Source of the DNA: Deltaproteobacteria bacterium RIFOXYA12_FULL_61_11 | Lineage (GTDB): Bacteria > Bdellovibrionota_F > JAHFAK01 > YA12-FULL-61-11 | NCBI GenBank assembly: GCA_001799195.1 | Contig: MGSU01000134.1 | Coordinates: forward strand, 1 to 6,533 | Direction of reading: 5' to 3' | Length of the DNA: 6,533 nt | Shown: positions 1-6,533 of the stretch, one piece after another | How positions within the stretch are numbered: the stretch's first letter is position 1 | Layout of the letters: every line of letters starts with the position of its first letter | Made by a program: the position numbers and the translations under genes | Notes under the pieces: generated by a model | Told to the model about the DNA's origin: nothing | The model's database searches: none | Seen by the model: only the letters and a program-made list of their open reading frames with translations

Positions 1-221
1 AGGAGGAGATGGAAGTGGTTATCCATGAGAACGTGGTCTATTAGGCTGATACCATAGTGCTTTTTCGTTCCCGCCAGGAGGTTTAGGTAGAGTTCTTTAA
101 ATGCAGGGTTGCTGAGCAGGTACTGGCGGGCGTGGTCGGTGCATTGCCAATAGGCGTGGACCAGATCGCCGTCGTGGAGTTGCAGGTCGCGAGGTACTCG
201 GGTGTTGGTGATCATGCTCAT
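1..221 (-). CDS. REP-associated (RAYT/IS200-like) Y1 transposase, N-terminal part
   Basis: This minus-strand frame starts at 221 and is cut by the left edge after 73 codons. RAYT enzymes are single-strand DNA nucleases of the Y1/HUH superfamily that act on REP palindromes. The family hallmark is visible at residues 61-73, I-D-H-V-L-M-D-N-H-F-H-L-L, where H69 and H71 form the metal-binding HUH pair. The stretch before it, with H22-A-Y-W-Q-C and then an alpha-helical segment ending K-K-H-Y-G-I, fits the usual N-terminal half of the domain. The catalytic tyrosine would lie beyond the window, so activity cannot be judged. The start at 221 is preferred over the in-frame ATG at 215 because a strong Shine-Dalgarno precedes it. 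It is transcribed away from the duplicated operons and may be an unrelated neighbour. Confidence 0.85.
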   Translation of the reverse strand, partial: MSMITNTRVPRDLQLHDGDLVHAYWQCTDHARQYLLSNPAFKELYLNLLAGTKKHYGISLIDHVLMDNHFHLL

Positions 222-226
222 GGCCT

Positions 227-235
227 GATCACCTC
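227..235 (-). promoter_or_regulatory. Strong ribosome binding site of the transposase
   Basis: Read on the minus strand this is GAGGTGATC, nine bases fully complementary to the conserved 16S rRNA 3' end. It ends five bases before the ATG at 221. It decides the start codon and indicates that the gene was, at least originally, well translated. Confidence 0.8.
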
Positions 236-309
236 AGCACATTGCGGGCCAGGGGTGTTTGATGAAAAGAACTGTGAAGACAAAGTGCTATTCACAGCAG
301 ATTGCGGGC
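235..309. repeat. Short direct repeat pair, 60 bp apart
   Basis: CAGCACATTGCGGGC at 235-249 recurs as CAGCAGATTGCGGGC at 295-309, which is 14 of 15 identical. Both lie in the upstream region of the transposase gene. They could be binding sites for a regulator of that gene, or a relic of a small duplication. With only two copies, chance is not excluded. Confidence 0.4.
272..297. repeat. Inverted repeat upstream of transposase
   Basis: CTGTGAA at 272-278 pairs perfectly with TTCACAG at 291-297 across a 12-nt spacer. The right arm overlaps the second copy of the short direct repeat. It could be an operator or a weak hairpin for the minus-strand transposase; there is no run of T on either side to suggest a terminator. 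Confidence 0.3.
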
Positions 310-440
310 ATTCGAAAAATCGATTCGGAGGATAGAAGTCCAACATGGGTATTGGTGGGTTTTGATGTTTTGAACCCCCGAACATCCAGTCGGACTCGCT
401 TTACTCGCGCGCAAAACACCGAATCAAACCCCGGCGGTAC

Positions 441-477
441 CATTCAGTTTGATTCAGGCATTCAATCAAATCGAATG
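441..477. promoter_or_regulatory. AT-rich dyad upstream of unit 1, candidate operator
   Basis: The left arm CATTCAGTTTGATT (441-454) and the right arm AATCAAATCGAATG (464-477) are complementary at 12 of 14 positions around a 9-nt centre. The same dyad, with the same centre length, occurs at 4674-4710. It lies just upstream of the promoter candidate, so a protein-binding operator is a plausible reading; an RNA hairpin is less likely if transcription starts downstream. Confidence 0.5.
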
Positions 478-503
478 GGTCCACAGGTTCGAGATCCGCC
501 GAT

Positions 504-531
504 TTGTATTCATATTGTTGATATCATACAC
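504..531 (+). promoter_or_regulatory. Weak promoter candidate of unit 1
   Basis: TTGTAT (504-509) could be a -35 box, followed after 16 nt by ATACAC (526-531) as a poor -10 box. The only support is position and conservation: the TTG and the CATACA core are kept at the same spacing in unit 2 (4737 and 4758-4763). The -10 match to the sigma-70 consensus is poor, so another sigma factor or an activator acting through the nearby dyad is possible. Confidence 0.3.
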
Positions 532-662
532 ATCTCACCCATGGCCCGGAAGCTGCATGCGGCGGTCGCAATGATGTAGGACATCAGACCATCCGCACGG
601 AATTTGTTTACCACTACGACGGCGTGCGCCGCAAGAAACCACCACAACACAAAGGAAAAATT
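532..662 (+). promoter_or_regulatory. Conserved structured leader of unit 1
   Basis: This leader precedes the small gene. It contains a 6-bp stem TGATGT/ACATCA with a 3-nt loop (572-586), a GC-rich hairpin CGGC/GCCG with a GTGC loop (620-631), then an unstructured A/C-rich stretch ending in the Shine-Dalgarno AAAGGA (651-656), six bases before the ATG at 663. A 12-codon open frame, M-A-R-K-L-H-A-A-V-A-M-M, runs from 541 to 579, its stop lying in the first hairpin; it has no Shine-Dalgarno. The block 616-659 is identical over 44 nt to unit 2, better than the downstream coding regions. Regulatory function is inferred from that conservation. Confidence 0.55.
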
Positions 663-1112
663 ATGAAAACGACGAAATCGACGGATTCCCCTGTCGGCAC
701 GATGGAAACCCGGATGAAACAGTGGGGAGCCCATCTCGACGATCTGGTCGCCAAAGCCGGAGAAGTCAGCACCGACGCCCGTAGCAGCTATCAGAAACGC
801 GTGAACGATCTGAAAGCCAAACACACGATTGCACAAAACAAGTTCAATGAGTTCAAGACCGCAGGCAGCGAGGAGTGGGAAACCTTCAAAGTCGGCGCCG
901 AGAGCACCTGGAACGAACTCGAGGGGGCCTTCAAGGACTTGACCAACAGCCTACCGATCGCCGCCAAACCCGCGAAGGGTGAGGCTAAAGACACCCTTAA
1001 CCAGAGAACCACGACCACGCGGCCCATGCACAAACCCGGCGCGTCGAAGTCATCTTCACACGCGCATCATGCGCAGACACATTCTTTAACCACCAAAGGG
1101 AATAAAAAATGA
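663..1112 (+). CDS. Small coiled-coil protein, sll1863-like stress-response family, with T/S/H-rich tail
   Basis: The product is 149 aa. Residues 14-90 are a charged helical domain with M-E-T-R-M-K-Q-W-G near its start, K-R-V-N-D-L-K-A-K in the middle and S-E-E-W-E-T-F-K, W-N-E-L-E near its end, a pattern I recall from the sll1863 family of stress-response proteins. The family's molecular role is not well defined. Residues 91-149 are a low-complexity basic tail rich in Thr, Ser, His and Lys, ending T-K-G-N-K-K, which I do not recognise from that family. No signal peptide or membrane segment is seen, so it is probably cytoplasmic. The ATG at 663 follows AAAGGA. The upstream in-frame GTG at 624 is rejected because in unit 2 a one-base insertion takes the equivalent GTG out of frame. 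The stop overlaps the next gene's ATG (ATGA), implying translational coupling. Confidence 0.85.
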   Translation: MKTTKSTDSPVGTMETRMKQWGAHLDDLVAKAGEVSTDARSSYQKRVNDLKAKHTIAQNKFNEFKTAGSEEWETFKVGAESTWNELEGAFKDLTNSLPIAAKPAKGEAKDTLNQRTTTTRPMHKPGASKSSSHAHHAQTHSLTTKGNKK

Positions 1113-4100
1113 ACAGCCAATCACGAACGTTTTTTGCTACCAGATTGACCCGGGGAACCCTGGGACTCCTCCTGTTGCTCGTCTTCGCCTTGCCATTCTA
1201 TAGCTGCAATGACGACAATGACGAAACAGCGACGGAGGGGGACGCTACGCTCGGGTCCCTCACTATCTCTGTCACCCCGGCCACGGCCGAGGTGCTTATC
1301 GAAGGGCCCAATGGTTTCAGCCAGACCATCACCGGCAGTCTGTGCATCTCTGATCTGGAGCCGGGTGAGTACACGGCCTCAGCCACCGCCAGCGGCTTCA
1401 GCGATGCGGACGGTTCGATCACCATCGTGGCCGGAGAGACCTCGAGCCTCACCTTGTCGCTCCTCAGCACAACGTCCGCGCCGACGGCGACGCTCGGGTC
1501 CCTCAATATCAATGTCACTCCGGCCACGGCCTCAGTGGTTATGGCAGGACCCGATAGTTACAGCAAGACCTTCACCGGCAATCTGTTCATCGCTGACCTG
1601 AAGCCGGGTCAGTACACAGCCTCGGCCACGGCCAGCGGTTTCAGCAATGCGGTCAGTCAGATCAACGTCGTGGCGGGACATACCTCGAGCATCTCCTTGC
1701 TGCTCCTCGACACCACGACCGCGACGGCGGCGACGCTTGGCGCCCTCAATATCAATGTCACGCCGGCCACGGCCTCAGTGGTTATGGCAGGACCCAATAG
1801 TTACAGTAAAACCTTCACCGGCAATCAGTTCCTCGTCGATCTGAAGCCGGGTCAGTACACGGCCACCGCCACCGCCAGCGGCTTCAACAATGCGGCTGCC
1901 CAAATCAACGTCGTGGTCGGACAGACCTCGAGCCTCTCCTTGCTGCTCCTCGACACACCTACCGCGACGGCGGCGCTTGGAGCCCTCAATATCAACATCA
2001 ATCCCGCCTCAGCCACCGTGCTGGTCACGGGGCCGAATGATTTTGAGCTGAGCTTTACCGGCAACCGGTTGCTCATCGACCTGAAGCCGGGGGAGTATCG
2101 AGCCGTGGCCAGCGCGCCAGGGTTCGGCGACTCGACCATGGGCATCAACGTCGTCGTGGGTATGACTTCGAGCCTCTCCTTTGTGCTCCCGGCCAAACCC
2201 ATCATCACCGAGGCGCCCCGCGCAGTGTATCGCGATAATAATGGTAGCCTCGTTCGCTTCGACTCCATCGTCATGCAGTCCGGTCAGTTCTCCTTCCATG
2301 CATGGCTCGAGGACAACCCCGAAGGCATCGTTCCGAGCCATATCACGACCAGCCCCATCTCGAATCCGGGCAACCCGCTGCTCAGCGAGCAGAAGGAATA
2401 CGCACCGAGCTTTACGCAGAACCTGGCCGGCGCCTGGGTCGGTTTCAAGGATGCCGGCGGCGTAGTCCGCCCCGTGATCGGCGCTGATGTCCGCTGGGAA
2501 CTCGACCAGTTATGGTCGAAGCGCGTCAACAGCATGCAGTTCGGCACCAGCGACGACAACCGCATCGCGCAGGGCTTCGGGGTCTTTGACGACCAGGCGG
2601 ACACGCGCACCAACAACGCCCGTCTCACCGGCGAACGCTTTCCTTATGTCGCGAGTGAATATCCTCTGTATAACGTGACCGGTATTGCCGCTCCCTATGC
2701 CGACGGCTTCACCTGGGTGACGCTGTTCTCTCCGGATACCAGGGCCGCCGGCCGTATTGTGGCCGTAGCGACCGTCAACGGCGAGGAAATCGGCAAGCAG
2801 ATCCTGTACAAGAATTTTGCGCCCGCACCCAAGCTCACGATCACCAAAACCGTCAGCGCTGACGTCGTGAACCTCGTGGCCGGCTCCGCGACCGTCACCT
2901 GGACCGTCAAGGTCAAGAACGTCGGCCTCGGCGAAGCCACCAATGTCGACCTCAGTGACATCCTACTCTCGGGCGTGGGCACCAATTACTCCCTCGGCCC
3001 CCTGCCTGCCGGCAGCACCGCCGTGGGCGATGGCTTTACGCTTTCGTTCCCGCTTCCTTCGGGCGACACCGAGACCCTGACCTTCACGGCTACGGTCACC
3101 GAAGCCGGTACCTACTGCAATGAAGCCCAGGTCCTCGAATACAATGATGACGACAACGAATGGGAACCGATCGGCCTCAAGGCCAGCGACTGCTTCACGG
3201 CGCTCGAGTCCAAGGTGTCTATCATCAAGGACTTTGTCGCCGATGACAACACGACCAGCCTTGGTCGGGCCAAGACCGTTTCGGCCAATGTCCCTGCCAA
3301 ACTGCGGGTGCGCGTGATCAATAACGGCAGCGGCAACGCGACGGGTGTGGCGGTCAACGACGTGCTCTCCAGCGGCGACGGGACCAAGTATGCAGCCAGT
3401 TCGTTCTCGCTGGGGACCGCGAATAGCACGGATGGCTTCGACTATACGATCGCCGACCTCGCTGCCGGCGCTACCACCACCATGCTCTTCACCGTCGTGG
3501 GCTCGGCTGACGGCGTCTATTGTGACACGGTGACCGTCACCGCCACTTCAGGCGACATCGGCATCGGCACGGACACCGCCTGCCTGACCGTGGCCACCCC
3601 CAACCTCACGATCACAAAAACTGACGCGCCCGAAAGCGTCATCCCAGGCGACACCTATGTCTCGACCATCGTCGTGACCAATACCGGCAATGCCACGGCC
3701 ACCAATGTGGTCATCAGCGATGTGCTGGGCCTCAATGCTGAGGTCGGCATGAGGGTCATTTATGTGAGCTCGAGCCTGAGCGGCGTGGGCGGCATTCTGG
3801 CCAACAATACGGTCACGGCCAACACGATGGACATCGTGGCCGGTCAAATCGTGACCTTCACCGTCACCAGCCGCATTCCGCTTGGTGCCATCTCCGGCAC
3901 CTACTGCGACGAGGCCACCGTCACCAGCAGCAACACCCCCACCCGGGAAGCCTCGGATTGCATCGACGTGCCGGCTTTCTCGGCGCTCCAGACCCAGATG
4001 ATCGATCTCAATGATCCTGTGGCGGCTGGAAGCGAACTCACGTTCTTCTCGACCATGTATGTGGAATCTCTCTCCAACGAGGGCGTGAACAAGAACACCA

Positions 4101-4501
4101 TGAAGTTCAGCTTCGGTCTTACCACCCCGGAGGGTATCGGCACCGCCGGTGTTTTCCGCGTCGCCTCGACCGAGGTCTACCTCGACACGGCTCCGGTGCG
4201 TGATCCCATCACCGGTCTCGTCGTCTCCGACGCGACCAATGCCACTGCCGTGCTTCAAACAGCGGGCAGCGCCTACACGATCGACAACTCGACCGCAGGC
4301 CTGCAAGTCATCACCATGACTCCGAGTGTCGCCTTGTTGCCCAACACGGCGATCTATTGCCTGCATCTGGTGGAGATCCCGAGTGCCACGCCGACCAACA
4401 AGATGTACACCTCGAGCTACATCTGGAATTCGGTCGGTCTGGGCGATACCTCGCATCTCTACCAAGCAAGTTCCTCCGAACCCACGACTGTGCTCCCCTG
4501 A
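1109..4501 (+). CDS. Large lipoprotein with four PEGA-like repeats and DUF11 domains
   Basis: The product is 1130 aa. Residues 1-33 form a lipoprotein signal peptide: arginines, a leucine-rich core and a lipobox-like F-Y-S-C with Cys33 as lipidation site, then an acidic N-D-D-N-D-E linker. Four PEGA-like beta-sandwich repeats follow, starting near 48, 129, 210 and 290, each with N-V-T-P-A-T-A, G-P-N-S-Y, D-L-K-P-G-Q-Y-T-A and A-S-G-F motifs. Residues 361-574 are an unrecognised module. Three DUF11 domains start near 575, 702 and 832, with L-T-I-T-K-T openings and V-T-N-T-G-N-A-T-A-T-N-V motifs. The final part (954-1130) looks like a degenerate fourth DUF11 domain. Each of the three clear DUF11 domains carries a cysteine pair (670/695, 805/825, 933/951). 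The protein probably sits in the cell envelope, anchored by lipid, in an adhesive or structural role; this is inference. Shine-Dalgarno AAAGGG (1095-1100) precedes the ATG, which overlaps the upstream stop. Confidence 0.93.
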   Translation: MNSQSRTFFATRLTRGTLGLLLLLVFALPFYSCNDDNDETATEGDATLGSLTISVTPATAEVLIEGPNGFSQTITGSLCISDLEPGEYTASATASGFSDADGSITIVAGETSSLTLSLLSTTSAPTATLGSLNINVTPATASVVMAGPDSYSKTFTGNLFIADLKPGQYTASATASGFSNAVSQINVVAGHTSSISLLLLDTTTATAATLGALNINVTPATASVVMAGPNSYSKTFTGNQFLVDLKPGQYTATATASGFNNAAAQINVVVGQTSSLSLLLLDTPTATAALGALNININPASATVLVTGPNDFELSFTGNRLLIDLKPGEYRAVASAPGFGDSTMGINVVVGMTSSLSFVLPAKPIITEAPRAVYRDNNGSLVRFDSIVMQSGQFSFHAWLEDNPEGIVPSHITTSPISNPGNPLLSEQKEYAPSFTQNLAGAWVGFKDAGGVVRPVIGADVRWELDQLWSKRVNSMQFGTSDDNRIAQGFGVFDDQADTRTNNARLTGERFPYVASEYPLYNVTGIAAPYADGFTWVTLFSPDTRAAGRIVAVATVNGEEIGKQILYKNFAPAPKLTITKTVSADVVNLVAGSATVTWTVKVKNVGLGEATNVDLSDILLSGVGTNYSLGPLPAGSTAVGDGFTLSFPLPSGDTETLTFTATVTEAGTYCNEAQVLEYNDDDNEWEPIGLKASDCFTALESKVSIIKDFVADDNTTSLGRAKTVSANVPAKLRVRVINNGSGNATGVAVNDVLSSGDGTKYAASSFSLGTANSTDGFDYTIADLAAGATTTMLFTVVGSADGVYCDTVTVTATSGDIGIGTDTACLTVATPNLTITKTDAPESVIPGDTYVSTIVVTNTGNATATNVVISDVLGLNAEVGMRVIYVSSSLSGVGGILANNTVTANTMDIVAGQIVTFTVTSRIPLGAISGTYCDEATVTSSNTPTREASDCIDVPAFSALQTQMIDLNDPVAAGSELTFFSTMYVESLSNEGVNKNTMKFSFGLTTPEGIGTAGVFRVASTEVYLDTAPVRDPITGLVVSDATNATAVLQTAGSAYTIDNSTAGLQVITMTPSVALLPNTAIYCLHLVEIPSATPTNKMYTSSYIWNSVGLGDTSHLYQASSSEPTTVLP
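1250..2188 (+). repeat. Tandem PEGA-coding repeats, four copies
   Basis: Four in-frame units start at 1250, 1493, 1736 and 1976, with a period of 240-243 bp. The second and third are nearly the same in DNA, sharing an unbroken run of about 33 bases around the segment coding P-A-T-A-S-V-V-M-A-G-P, which points to a recent unit duplication. The first and fourth are more diverged and are the ones most like those kept in unit 2. Such repeats can change number by slippage or unequal recombination. Confidence 0.85.
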
Positions 4502-4516
4502 AGTAATGGTCGGGTT

Positions 4517-4549
4517 CCCGCGGGAGTCTCACGACTCCCGCGGGTTTTT
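4517..4549 (+). terminator. Intrinsic terminator of unit 1
   Basis: CCCGCGGGAGTC (4517-4528) pairs perfectly over 12 bp with GACTCCCGCGGG (4533-4544) around a TCAC loop and is followed directly by TTTTT (4545-4549). It starts 15 bases after the lipoprotein stop codon. There is no T-run for the opposite strand, so it acts in the plus direction and separates unit 1 from unit 2. Confidence 0.93.
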
Positions 4550-4673
4550 CCGGTTCAATCCCCCCCGAGCAACTCGTGAAAGCCAGGCACACGCTCTCGA
4601 ATTTGAAATGAAGCATACTCCCACGTCGGGCTCCCCTTTCACAACTTCTCCAACGGATCACACCCGGCGGTTC
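4550..4673. other. Spacer between unit 1 terminator and unit 2 dyad
   Basis: No gene is supported here. Similarity to the region before unit 1 begins near 4625 (GTCGG, matching 389) and becomes strong at CGGCGGT (4665, matching 432). The part 4550-4624 has no clear counterpart. Confidence 0.5.
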
Positions 4674-4710
4674 CATTCAGATTGATTCAATCCTTCAATC
4701 AAATCGAATG
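4674..4710. promoter_or_regulatory. AT-rich dyad upstream of unit 2, candidate operator
   Basis: The left arm CATTCAGATTGATT (4674-4687) and right arm AATCAAATCGAATG (4697-4710) pair at 11 of 14 positions around a 9-nt centre. The right arm is identical to that of unit 1, and the TTGATT/AATCAA core is intact in both, while the 9-nt centre has changed. Conserved arms with a changed centre fit a binding site. Confidence 0.5.
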
Positions 4711-4736
4711 CATCCCCAGACTCGAGGTGTGCCTTA

Positions 4737-4764
4737 TTGGGTTTATGTGGATGATTTCATACAT
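4737..4764 (+). promoter_or_regulatory. Weak promoter candidate of unit 2
   Basis: TTGGGT (4737-4742) and ATACAT (4759-4764) are separated by 16 nt, at exactly the position of the unit 1 candidate. The boxes are poor matches to the sigma-70 consensus; the call rests on conserved placement between dyad and leader. Confidence 0.3.
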
Positions 4765-4896
4765 ACCTTACTCATGGCCCGAAAGCTGCAGACGCCGGTC
4801 ACAATGATGTAGGACATCAGACCACCCGCACGGATCTTTTTCACAACCACGACGGCGTGCGCCGCAAGAAACCACCACAACACAAAGGAAAAGCGT
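4765..4896 (+). promoter_or_regulatory. Conserved structured leader of unit 2
   Basis: It has the same architecture as the unit 1 leader: TGATGT/ACATCA stem (4805-4819), GC-rich hairpin (4853-4864), A/C-rich stretch and AAAGGA Shine-Dalgarno (4884-4889). The 12-codon open frame is also kept (4774-4812, M-A-R-K-L-Q-T-P-V-T-M-M). One extra base lies between the Shine-Dalgarno and the ATG at 4897 compared with unit 1. Confidence 0.55.
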
Positions 4897-5091
4897 ATGA
4901 AAACGACGAAAAGGAAGGACGTTACCAACCCCCCGCCAAGTGCCGCAAAACCCACGACGGGCATGGCCAAGAATGCCCACGGCCAGACAACCACGACCGC
5001 GCGGACCGAGCCGCAACCCGGCGCGTCGAAGTCATCTTCGCACCTGCATCCCGCACAGACATCTTCAACCACGAAAGGGAATAAAAAATGA
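4897..5091 (+). CDS. Domain-less short form of the small protein (64 aa)
   Basis: The product starts M-K-T-T-K like its unit 1 counterpart and then jumps directly to the tail: K-D-V-T-N-P-P-P-S-A-A-K-P here against K-D-L-T-N-S-L-P-I-A-A-K-P in unit 1. It continues to the same P-G-A-S-K-S-S-S-H and T-T-K-G-N-K-K end. The missing part equals residues 7-90 of the unit 1 protein, the entire sll1863-like domain, and the frame is kept. What remains is basic, Thr/Ser/Pro-rich and probably disordered. Its Shine-Dalgarno, ATGA overlap with the lipoprotein gene and tail are preserved, so it is probably translated, either as a peptide of unknown role or mainly to bring ribosomes to the lipoprotein start. 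It could instead be a decaying copy. Confidence 0.7.
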   Translation: MKTTKRKDVTNPPPSAAKPTTGMAKNAHGQTTTTARTEPQPGASKSSSHLHPAQTSSTTKGNKK

Positions 5092-6533
5092 ACCACCAAG
5101 CACGAACGCTCTCTCCTTCCCGACTGACCCGGGGACCCCTGGGACTCCTCCTGTTGCTTGTCTTCACCTTACCGTTTCATAGCTGCGGTGACGACGCGAA
5201 GGAGGACTCTTCGCTCGGATCCCTCACTCTCAATGTCACTCCGGCCACGGCCGAAGTGACGATGGTAGGACCCAAGAGTTACAGCAAAACCTTCACCGGC
5301 ACTCAGCTTATCTCTGATCTGGAGCCGGGTGAGTACACGGCCTCGGCCACCGCCAGCGGCTTCAACGATGCGGACGCTCAATTCAACATCGTGGCCGGAC
5401 AGACCTCAGACCTCACCTTGTCGCTTATCGACACCACGACCGCGTCAGCGGCGCTTGGCGCCCTCAATATCAACATCAATCCACCCTCCGCCACCGTGCT
5501 GGTCACGGGGCCGGATGATTATGAGCAAAACTTTACCGGTAACCGGTTACTCATCGACCTGAAGCAGGGGGAGTATCGGGCCAAGGCCAGCGCGCCAGGG
5601 TTCGGCGACTCGACCATGGAGATCAATGTCGTCGTGGGTATGACTTCGAGCCTCTCCTTTGTGCTCCCGGCCAAGCCTATCATCACCGAGGCGCCCCGCG
5701 CCGTGTATCGCGATGATAAAGGCAGTCTCGTTCGCCTCGACTCCATCAGCATGCAGTCCGGTCAATTCTCCTTCCATGCATGGCTCGAGAATGAACCCGA
5801 TGGCATCGTTCCGAGCAAAATCACGGCCAACCCCATCTCAAATCCGGGCAACCCGCTGCTCAGCGAGCAGATGGAATTCGCTCCGAGCTTGACGCAGAAC
5901 CTGGCCGGTGCATGGGTCGGCTTCAAGGACGCCTCCGGCGTCATCCGCCCCGTGATTGGCGCCGATGTCCGCTGGGAGATCGACCAGTTCTGGTCGAAGC
6001 GCGTCAACAGCATGCAGTTTGGCACCAGTGACGATAACCGCATCGCGCAGGGCTACGGGGTCTTTGACGACCAGGCCGACACGCGCACCAACAACGCCCG
6101 TCTCACCGGCGAACGCTTTCCTTTTGTCGCCAGTGAATATCCGTTGTACAACATGACCGGTCTAACCGCTCCCTTTGCCGACGGCTTCACCTGGGTGACG
6201 CTGTTCTCTCCGGATACCAGGGCTGCTGGCCGTATTGTGGCCGTGGCGACTGTCGACGGCGAGGAAATCGGCAAGCAGATCCTGTACAAGAATTTTGCGC
6301 CTGCACCCAAGCTCACGATCACCAAGACCGTCAGCGCTGACGTTGTGAACCTCGTGGCCGGCTCCGCGAGCGTCACGTGGACCGTCAAAGTCAAGAACGT
6401 CGGCCTTGGTGAAGCTACCAATGTCGACCTCAAAGACATCCTGCTCTCAGGCGCAGGTGCCAATTACTCCCTCGGTTCACGGCCTGCCGGCAGCACTGCC
6501 GTGGGTGATGGCTTTACGCTTTCGTTCCCGCTT
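5088..6533 (+). CDS. Second PEGA/DUF11 lipoprotein, N-terminal 482 residues
   Basis: The frame is open from the ATG at 5088, which overlaps the small gene's TGA, to the last base of the window. The signal peptide R-L-T-R-G-P-L-G-L-L ends in L-P-F-H-S-C with Cys33, followed by G-D-D-A-K-E-D. Two PEGA-like repeats start near residues 43 and 123. The unrecognised module spans about 194-407 and the first DUF11 domain starts at 408 (K-L-T-I-T-K-T). I count about 24 differences from the unit 1 module over some 213 residues, mostly conservative (F/Y, V/I, L/I), and 6 over the 75 DUF11 residues visible. This suggests selection for a working protein. The second half, including the DUF11 cysteines and any terminator, lies outside the window. 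Role as for its paralogue: an envelope lipoprotein of unknown function. Confidence 0.9.
   Translation, partial: MNHQARTLSPSRLTRGPLGLLLLLVFTLPFHSCGDDAKEDSSLGSLTLNVTPATAEVTMVGPKSYSKTFTGTQLISDLEPGEYTASATASGFNDADAQFNIVAGQTSDLTLSLIDTTTASAALGALNININPPSATVLVTGPDDYEQNFTGNRLLIDLKQGEYRAKASAPGFGDSTMEINVVVGMTSSLSFVLPAKPIITEAPRAVYRDDKGSLVRLDSISMQSGQFSFHAWLENEPDGIVPSKITANPISNPGNPLLSEQMEFAPSLTQNLAGAWVGFKDASGVIRPVIGADVRWEIDQFWSKRVNSMQFGTSDDNRIAQGYGVFDDQADTRTNNARLTGERFPFVASEYPLYNMTGLTAPFADGFTWVTLFSPDTRAAGRIVAVATVDGEEIGKQILYKNFAPAPKLTITKTVSADVVNLVAGSASVTWTVKVKNVGLGEATNVDLKDILLSGAGANYSLGSRPAGSTAVGDGFTLSFPL
5214..5666 (+). repeat. PEGA-coding repeats of unit 2, two copies
   Basis: Two in-frame units start at 5214 and 5454. 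The second clearly matches the fourth repeat of unit 1 (N-I-N-I-N-P, V-L-V-T-G-P, S-A-P-G-F-G-D-S-T-M). The first is mosaic: T-P-A-T-A-E-V and I-S-D-L-E-P-G-E-Y match the first repeat of unit 1, while G-P-K-S-Y-S-K-T-F-T-G matches the second and third. Confidence 0.8.

Follow-up and report, generated by a model that had tools for sequence, protein, structure and literature searches.

Organisation of the Locus

The window analysed here is a stretch of 6,533 nucleotides, comprising bases 1-6533 of a 16,683-base contig from a draft genome. It carries a two-gene unit that is present twice in tandem: in each copy a small gene is followed by a large lipoprotein-like gene, and the two overlap by the four nucleotides ATGA (Table 1). 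The overlap, AAAAAATGAAC, is found at the junction of unit 1 as well as that of unit 2. The duplication covers the whole unit and not the small gene alone; the 230 nt upstream are 83% identical between the units, and the lipoproteins are 85% identical at the amino acid level. An assembly artefact was ruled out, because the units differ by 11-23% in their coding parts and there is no N in the neighbourhood of the deletion described below. The nearest scaffold gap is a run of 15 N starting at contig position 6534, just beyond the window.

A truncated open reading frame occupies the contig edge on the reverse strand (window 1-221) and ends in HFHLL. By eye it resembles the start of a transposase of the REP/IS200 type (Y1); Pfam gave no match for this fragment. 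A search of the contig with Rfam matched nothing.

Table 1. Features of the two units, in window coordinates (all on the forward strand).
Feature	Position	Strand	Remarks
Unit 1 enhancer-like element ATCAAATCGAATG	465..477	+	77 nt before the -24 element
Unit 1 predicted sigma-54-type promoter TGGCCCGGAAGCTGCA (GG-N10-GC)	542..557	+	Motif match
Unit 1 5' UTR hairpin block UGAUGU-AGG-ACAUCA	569..591	+	Identical in unit 2
Unit 1 44-nt block	616..659	+	Holds the small gene's Shine-Dalgarno AAGGA; mismatch-free against unit 2
Unit 1 small gene	663..1112	+	149 aa; sll1863-family helical domain at aa 12-95, then predicted disordered S/T/H/K tail
Block missing from unit 2	686..937	+	252 nt of unit 1; alternative placement 683-934; GGA microhomology at both ends
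Unit 1 lipoprotein gene	1109..4501	+	1130 aa; 4 PEGA/CarboxypepD_reg-like repeats, core, DUF11 domains; start overlaps small gene stop (ATGA)
Unit 2 enhancer-like element	4698..4710	+	77 nt before the -24 element
Unit 2 predicted sigma-54-type promoter TGGCCCGAAAGCTGCA	4775..4790	+	Motif match
Unit 2 5' UTR GGA hairpin block	4802..4824	+	Identical to unit 1
Unit 2 44-nt block	4849..4892	+	Holds the small gene's Shine-Dalgarno; identical to unit 1
Unit 2 small gene	4897..5091	+	64 aa; MKTTK start, KDVTN stub of the domain's last helix, predicted disordered tail
Putative deletion junction GGA in unit 2	4917..4919	+	DNA and codon alignment
Unit 2 ATGA overlap, small gene stop and lipoprotein start	5088..5091	+	ORF coordinates
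Unit 2 lipoprotein gene	5088..6533, on to contig position 7907	+	939 aa, with 15 N; 2 PEGA-like repeats

The Two Small Genes

The small gene of unit 2 corresponds to that of unit 1 minus exactly 252 nt (84 codons), with the reading frame kept, and one further codon (a 3-nt gap) is lost from its tail. The first five codons, ATGAAAACGACGAAA, are the same letter for letter in both genes in the DNA and codon alignments. The tails, of 59 codons in unit 1 and 58 in unit 2, share 77% of their nucleotides and 65.5% of their amino acids; since they match as proteins with E = 3.8e-11, their resemblance is not due to chance. A preliminary description of this locus had equated the 64-aa product with the 149-aa product without residues 7-90, and had aligned the MKTTK start and a tail of 58-59 residues in an intact frame. 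The alignments bear out the second statement in full and the first to within an ambiguity of 2-3 codons.

In unit 1, the ends of the gap sit in the triplet GGA at 683-685 and again at 935-937, and unit 2 holds a single GGA. A triplet shared by the two ends of a gap is the usual mark of a deletion between short repeats and suggests such an event here, three bases being too few as proof.

The Missing Domain

Residues 12-95 of the unit 1 small protein match NF052504, the NCBIfam model of the sll1863 family stress response proteins, with an E-value of 3.5e-23 and 81.6 bits (the curated cut-off is 35 bits). The same profile detects two other products of the contig, a coil-only paralogue encoded at 9049-9327 (E 4.2e-24, 84.6 bits) and the product of 11830-12303 (44.3 bits). 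It finds no match in the 64-aa product of unit 2, which has lost the domain and is not a member of the family. Sll1863 of Synechocystis shows strong induction by salt and stress, and its function is unknown (PMC8670252).

An AlphaFold2 model of the unit 1 protein, built on a shallow alignment and with a mean pLDDT of 64, predicts three helices (residues 10-32, 37-66, and 69-96, pLDDT about 70-84), after which, from residue 97, the tail is disordered (pLDDT about 40-50). Unit 1 thus resembles the family in its profile match and its helical fold, but differs from the members examined in having a disordered C-terminal tail. Comparison with solved structures gave generic coiled-coil matches only.

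According to the model, the deletion removed the helical domain entirely but for five or six residues at its end. The NF052504 match stops at residue 95 and the final predicted helix at residue 96, so unit 2 retains a five-residue stub, KDVTN. The earlier view that the missing block is just the domain therefore stands as far as the loss of the helical domain is concerned, but not as to the position of the cut, which does not lie at the domain edge.

Predicted Promoters and Leaders

A motif of the sigma-54 type, TGGCNCGNAWGCTGCW (GG-N10-GC, -24/-12), is found on the contig at 542, 4775, and 8990-9005, that is, before unit 1, unit 2, and the coil paralogue, with 0 mismatches in both units. Only 0.03 matches would be expected on the contig, a figure that is somewhat optimistic because the motif was defined on these very sites. 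The stronger number is its genome-wide rarity: the 4.6-Mb genome contains four matches, against none for the reversed control. The fourth match (C341:8622-8637) neighbours a gene for an exopolysaccharide-type sugar transferase and lies on the strand opposite to it. The motif also precedes a cluster with a coil gene in a Myxococcales metagenome-assembled genome (MAG; L014 5671-5686), where 10 of 200 shuffles reach one match.

An enhancer-like element, ATCAAATYGAATG, identified by sequence comparison only, is located 77, 77, and 98 nt before the promoters of unit 1, unit 2, and the coil paralogue, respectively; the difference of 21 nt corresponds to about two helical turns. Allowing one mismatch, four copies occur on the contig, where 0.03 would be expected. 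The genome encodes sigma-54 (rpoN; PF04552, E 2.1e-64 at C315) and many regulators of the enhancer-binding type. Both units and the coil gene share what is predicted to be a sigma-54-type promoter family.

A comparable case is pepA of Aquincola tertiaricarbonis, an RpoN-dependent surface protein gene with a mapped promoter, TGGCAC / CTGCTT (PMC9850573). This resembles the TGGCNC / GCTGCW found here, and in both organisms the promoter precedes a surface protein operon. The two systems differ in that a search of the present genome for a PrsR-type (PEP-CTERM) response regulator gave 28 matches, 0 of them above the cut-off, and in that the enhancer-like element was recognised here by comparison only.

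When the leaders of the two units are compared, three stretches are unbroken: 616-659 (44 nt, the longest), 569-591 (the hairpin), and 461-477 (the enhancer-like element). A mismatch-free run of 44 nt has a probability of about 0.005 if mismatches are scattered at random. The parts best kept between the units are these 44 nt before the small gene, the GGA hairpin, the promoter, the enhancer-like element, and the last ~24 codons of the small gene with the ATGA. The hairpin, which has GGA at its loop, is the same in both 5' UTRs and is a possible CsrA site; csrA is present in the genome. It could be imagined that the emptied gene has become a leader ORF under selection for its sigma-54 promoter, GGA hairpin, initiation region, and ATGA handover, and that a post-transcriptional switch thereby sets the output of the lipoprotein. 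We regard this as improbable.

Loss in Unit 2 or Gain in Unit 1

No relatives of the lipoprotein core were found in 84,980 species genomes searched with peptide patterns, or in viral contigs, the phylum (2 genomes), and 386 genomes (profile). For the small protein, a pattern scan returned one Myxococcales MAG only, viral contigs returned nothing, and plasmids returned two weak, coil-only matches; these patterns were built on coil stretches, so that a tail-only gene elsewhere could escape them. As these searches yielded neither the tail nor the lipoprotein core in any other genome, they give no date for the event, and its polarity was judged from the paralogues and the architecture of the family.

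The preliminary description left it open whether the domain had been lost from unit 2 or gained by unit 1. The comparison favours loss. Firstly, the coil paralogue (92 aa, 51-53% identical to unit 1, 53% over residues 9-95) ends at the domain end and has no tail, and all 15 homologues examined from other genomes likewise end at most 14 residues from the domain end, without such a tail. This suggests that the coil usually stands alone and that only this unit has acquired the tail. Secondly, the KDVTN of unit 2 lines up with KDLTN of the unit 1 protein, with the KKLTK-stop of the paralogue, and with the KKLKN-stop of the Myxococcales protein, all at the end of the last helix, and such a stub would not be expected of a tail-only ancestor. 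Thirdly, unit 2 has the sigma-54-type promoter and the enhancer-like element of the coil gene.

The opposite history, in which the ancestral unit was a short, tail-only coupling ORF and the sll1863 domain was later inserted in unit 1, could draw on the fact that a tail joined to a lipoprotein gene occurs in both units, and the domain might have been captured from the paralogue 8 kb downstream. However, the insertion would have had to land in frame directly ahead of a sequence that happened to match the end of the domain, in a unit that already possessed the coil gene's promoter and enhancer-like element. A gain is therefore very unlikely.

The lipoproteins also differ in their repeats of ~80 aa, which are PEGA-like: four are encoded in unit 1 (contig 1248-2213) and two in unit 2 (5212-5691). 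The first repeat of unit 2 is equally distant (81-82% identity) from repeats 1-3 of unit 1, and repeats 2 and 3 of unit 1 are 87% alike, which suggests a gain of repeats in unit 1. As to a shrinkage of the unit 2 lipoprotein in parallel with its small gene, the repeat identities leave the direction ambiguous and point rather to the gain.

Constraint on the Tail

In a pairwise comparison of the two sequences, differences in the tail are spread over the three codon positions as 12/13/15, compared with 97/64/163 in the lipoprotein. By the NG86 method, the tail has a dN of 0.23 and a dS of 0.42, and the lipoprotein a dN of 0.09 and a dS of 0.25. The tail is not uniform. Its first 34 codons show 11/10/11 differences, with no third-position excess and 50% amino acid identity, and its last 24 codons, which hold the ribosome-binding region of the lipoprotein, are 89% identical in DNA and 87.5% in amino acids. 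Codons with a changed amino acid number 20, where 24.8 +/- 2.3 would be expected if substitutions were placed at random (P 0.036). The frame would stay open under random substitution in 57% of cases, and two in-frame indels have a chance of about 1 in 9, so the open frame counts for little as a sign of selection. If the tail is under selection as a protein, this appears weak at best. Profile searches found no family match for the tail, and homology to a K/T-rich ORF at contig 11047-11334 was rejected, as the matches were of a compositional type only.

The suggestion that the tail itself is functional is thus unsupported at the protein level. A disordered peptide expressed alone from unit 2 could account for the frame being open in both units, for the slight deficit of changed codons, and for the identity of the last 24 residues, but protein constraint is not visible in the first 34 codons, the conserved stretch is the one that holds the Shine-Dalgarno-like sequence and start of the lipoprotein gene, and no family is matched. 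Such a role is doubtful.

The main alternative is plain decay, which we consider possible, at well below even odds. Here, a redundant duplicate would have shed its domain through an accidental deletion that left the frame intact, and would have drifted since; its promoter and start would survive only through their position ahead of the lipoprotein gene or for lack of time to diverge. The lack of a third-position excess, the low identity of the first 34 codons, and the ease with which the frame would stay open by chance speak for such drift. Against it, no stretch of the leader is better conserved than the one with the small gene's own initiation region, and neither the ATG nor the ATGA overlap has been lost.

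Possible Coupling to the Lipoprotein Gene

Overlapping gene pairs of the ATGA/TGATG type were strictly coupled in 13 of 14 cases tested (PMC6728339), and on this basis the unit 2 small gene most likely persists as a translated leader. The present locus resembles these termination-reinitiation pairs in its 4-nt overlap in both units. It differs in that the upstream ORF of unit 2 has no recognised domain, and would be a leader ORF rather than encode a partner protein, and in that coupling is here a prediction from the sequence. Both the presence of the ATGA overlap in the two units and the fact that conservation is highest at the initiation region of the small gene would fit a retained coupling.

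The lipoprotein gene has a Shine-Dalgarno-like sequence of its own, AAAGGGA, and in folding, the 121 nt around its start do not surpass shuffled sequences (z -0.36 and 0.50), although not all coupled pairs need structure. Neither a structured attenuator nor a hidden lipoprotein start is supported by this folding. The lipoprotein may therefore not need coupling, in which case coupling could be dispensable and the small gene merely decaying.

A Possible History of the Locus

Taken together, the best explanation, to which we assign a probability of roughly 0.55, is that a coil gene was extended to the lipoprotein start, the resulting unit was duplicated, the domain was deleted in unit 2, and the remnant serves as a translated leader for the lipoprotein. 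A stand-alone gene of the sll1863 family with a sigma-54-type promoter would first have been placed immediately in front of a surface lipoprotein gene. Because the tail begins where the family proteins stop and ends on the lipoprotein start codon, its simplest origin would be the loss of the coil gene's stop codon, so that the frame ran through a short spacer to the ATGA and the spacer became the disordered tail. Among the routes to overlapping genes, PMC3887535 describes the exchange of a stop codon for one located within the adjacent gene. The two-gene unit was then duplicated in tandem. In unit 2, the 252 nt would have been deleted in frame between the short GGA repeats, leaving five residues of the domain; the geometry is plain from the alignment, and a loss is strongly indicated as its direction.

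We infer that the 64-aa ORF is translated and that what matters is its translation rather than its product. With the sigma-54 promoter and the enhancer driving the operon, ribosomes would load at the conserved initiation region, terminate at the ATGA, and reinitiate on the lipoprotein gene, as the anatomy of the locus and the behaviour of overlaps in other organisms suggest. The locus can be explained mostly by known processes, namely tandem duplication, in-frame deletion of a known domain, and retention of expression signals, and the unit 2 small gene is probably a case of ordinary gene decay with its expression signals preserved.

If this history is correct, the locus offers a readable case of a structural gene turning into a translated leader, in which copies with and without the domain stand side by side and the regulatory parts are kept. 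It would also place stress proteins of the sll1863 type, whose function is unknown, in one sigma-54 regulon together with surface lipoproteins, and this in a phylum of which few genomes have been sampled. No general rule is changed by it; the main value lies in the shared promoter family and the possible transition from gene to leader.

The Neighbouring Gene Cluster

The coil paralogue is the first gene of a stress-type cluster at contig 9049-12303, which encodes, in order, the sll1863 coil, a DUF4398 protein, a DUF4398-OmpA protein, the K/T-rich ORF, CsbD, a DUF5670 protein, and an sll1863-type lipoprotein. The same order of coil, DUF4398, DUF4398-OmpA, and sll1863-type lipoprotein is found in the Myxococcales MAG, where an ice-binding-like (PF11999) protein is encoded upstream of the cluster.
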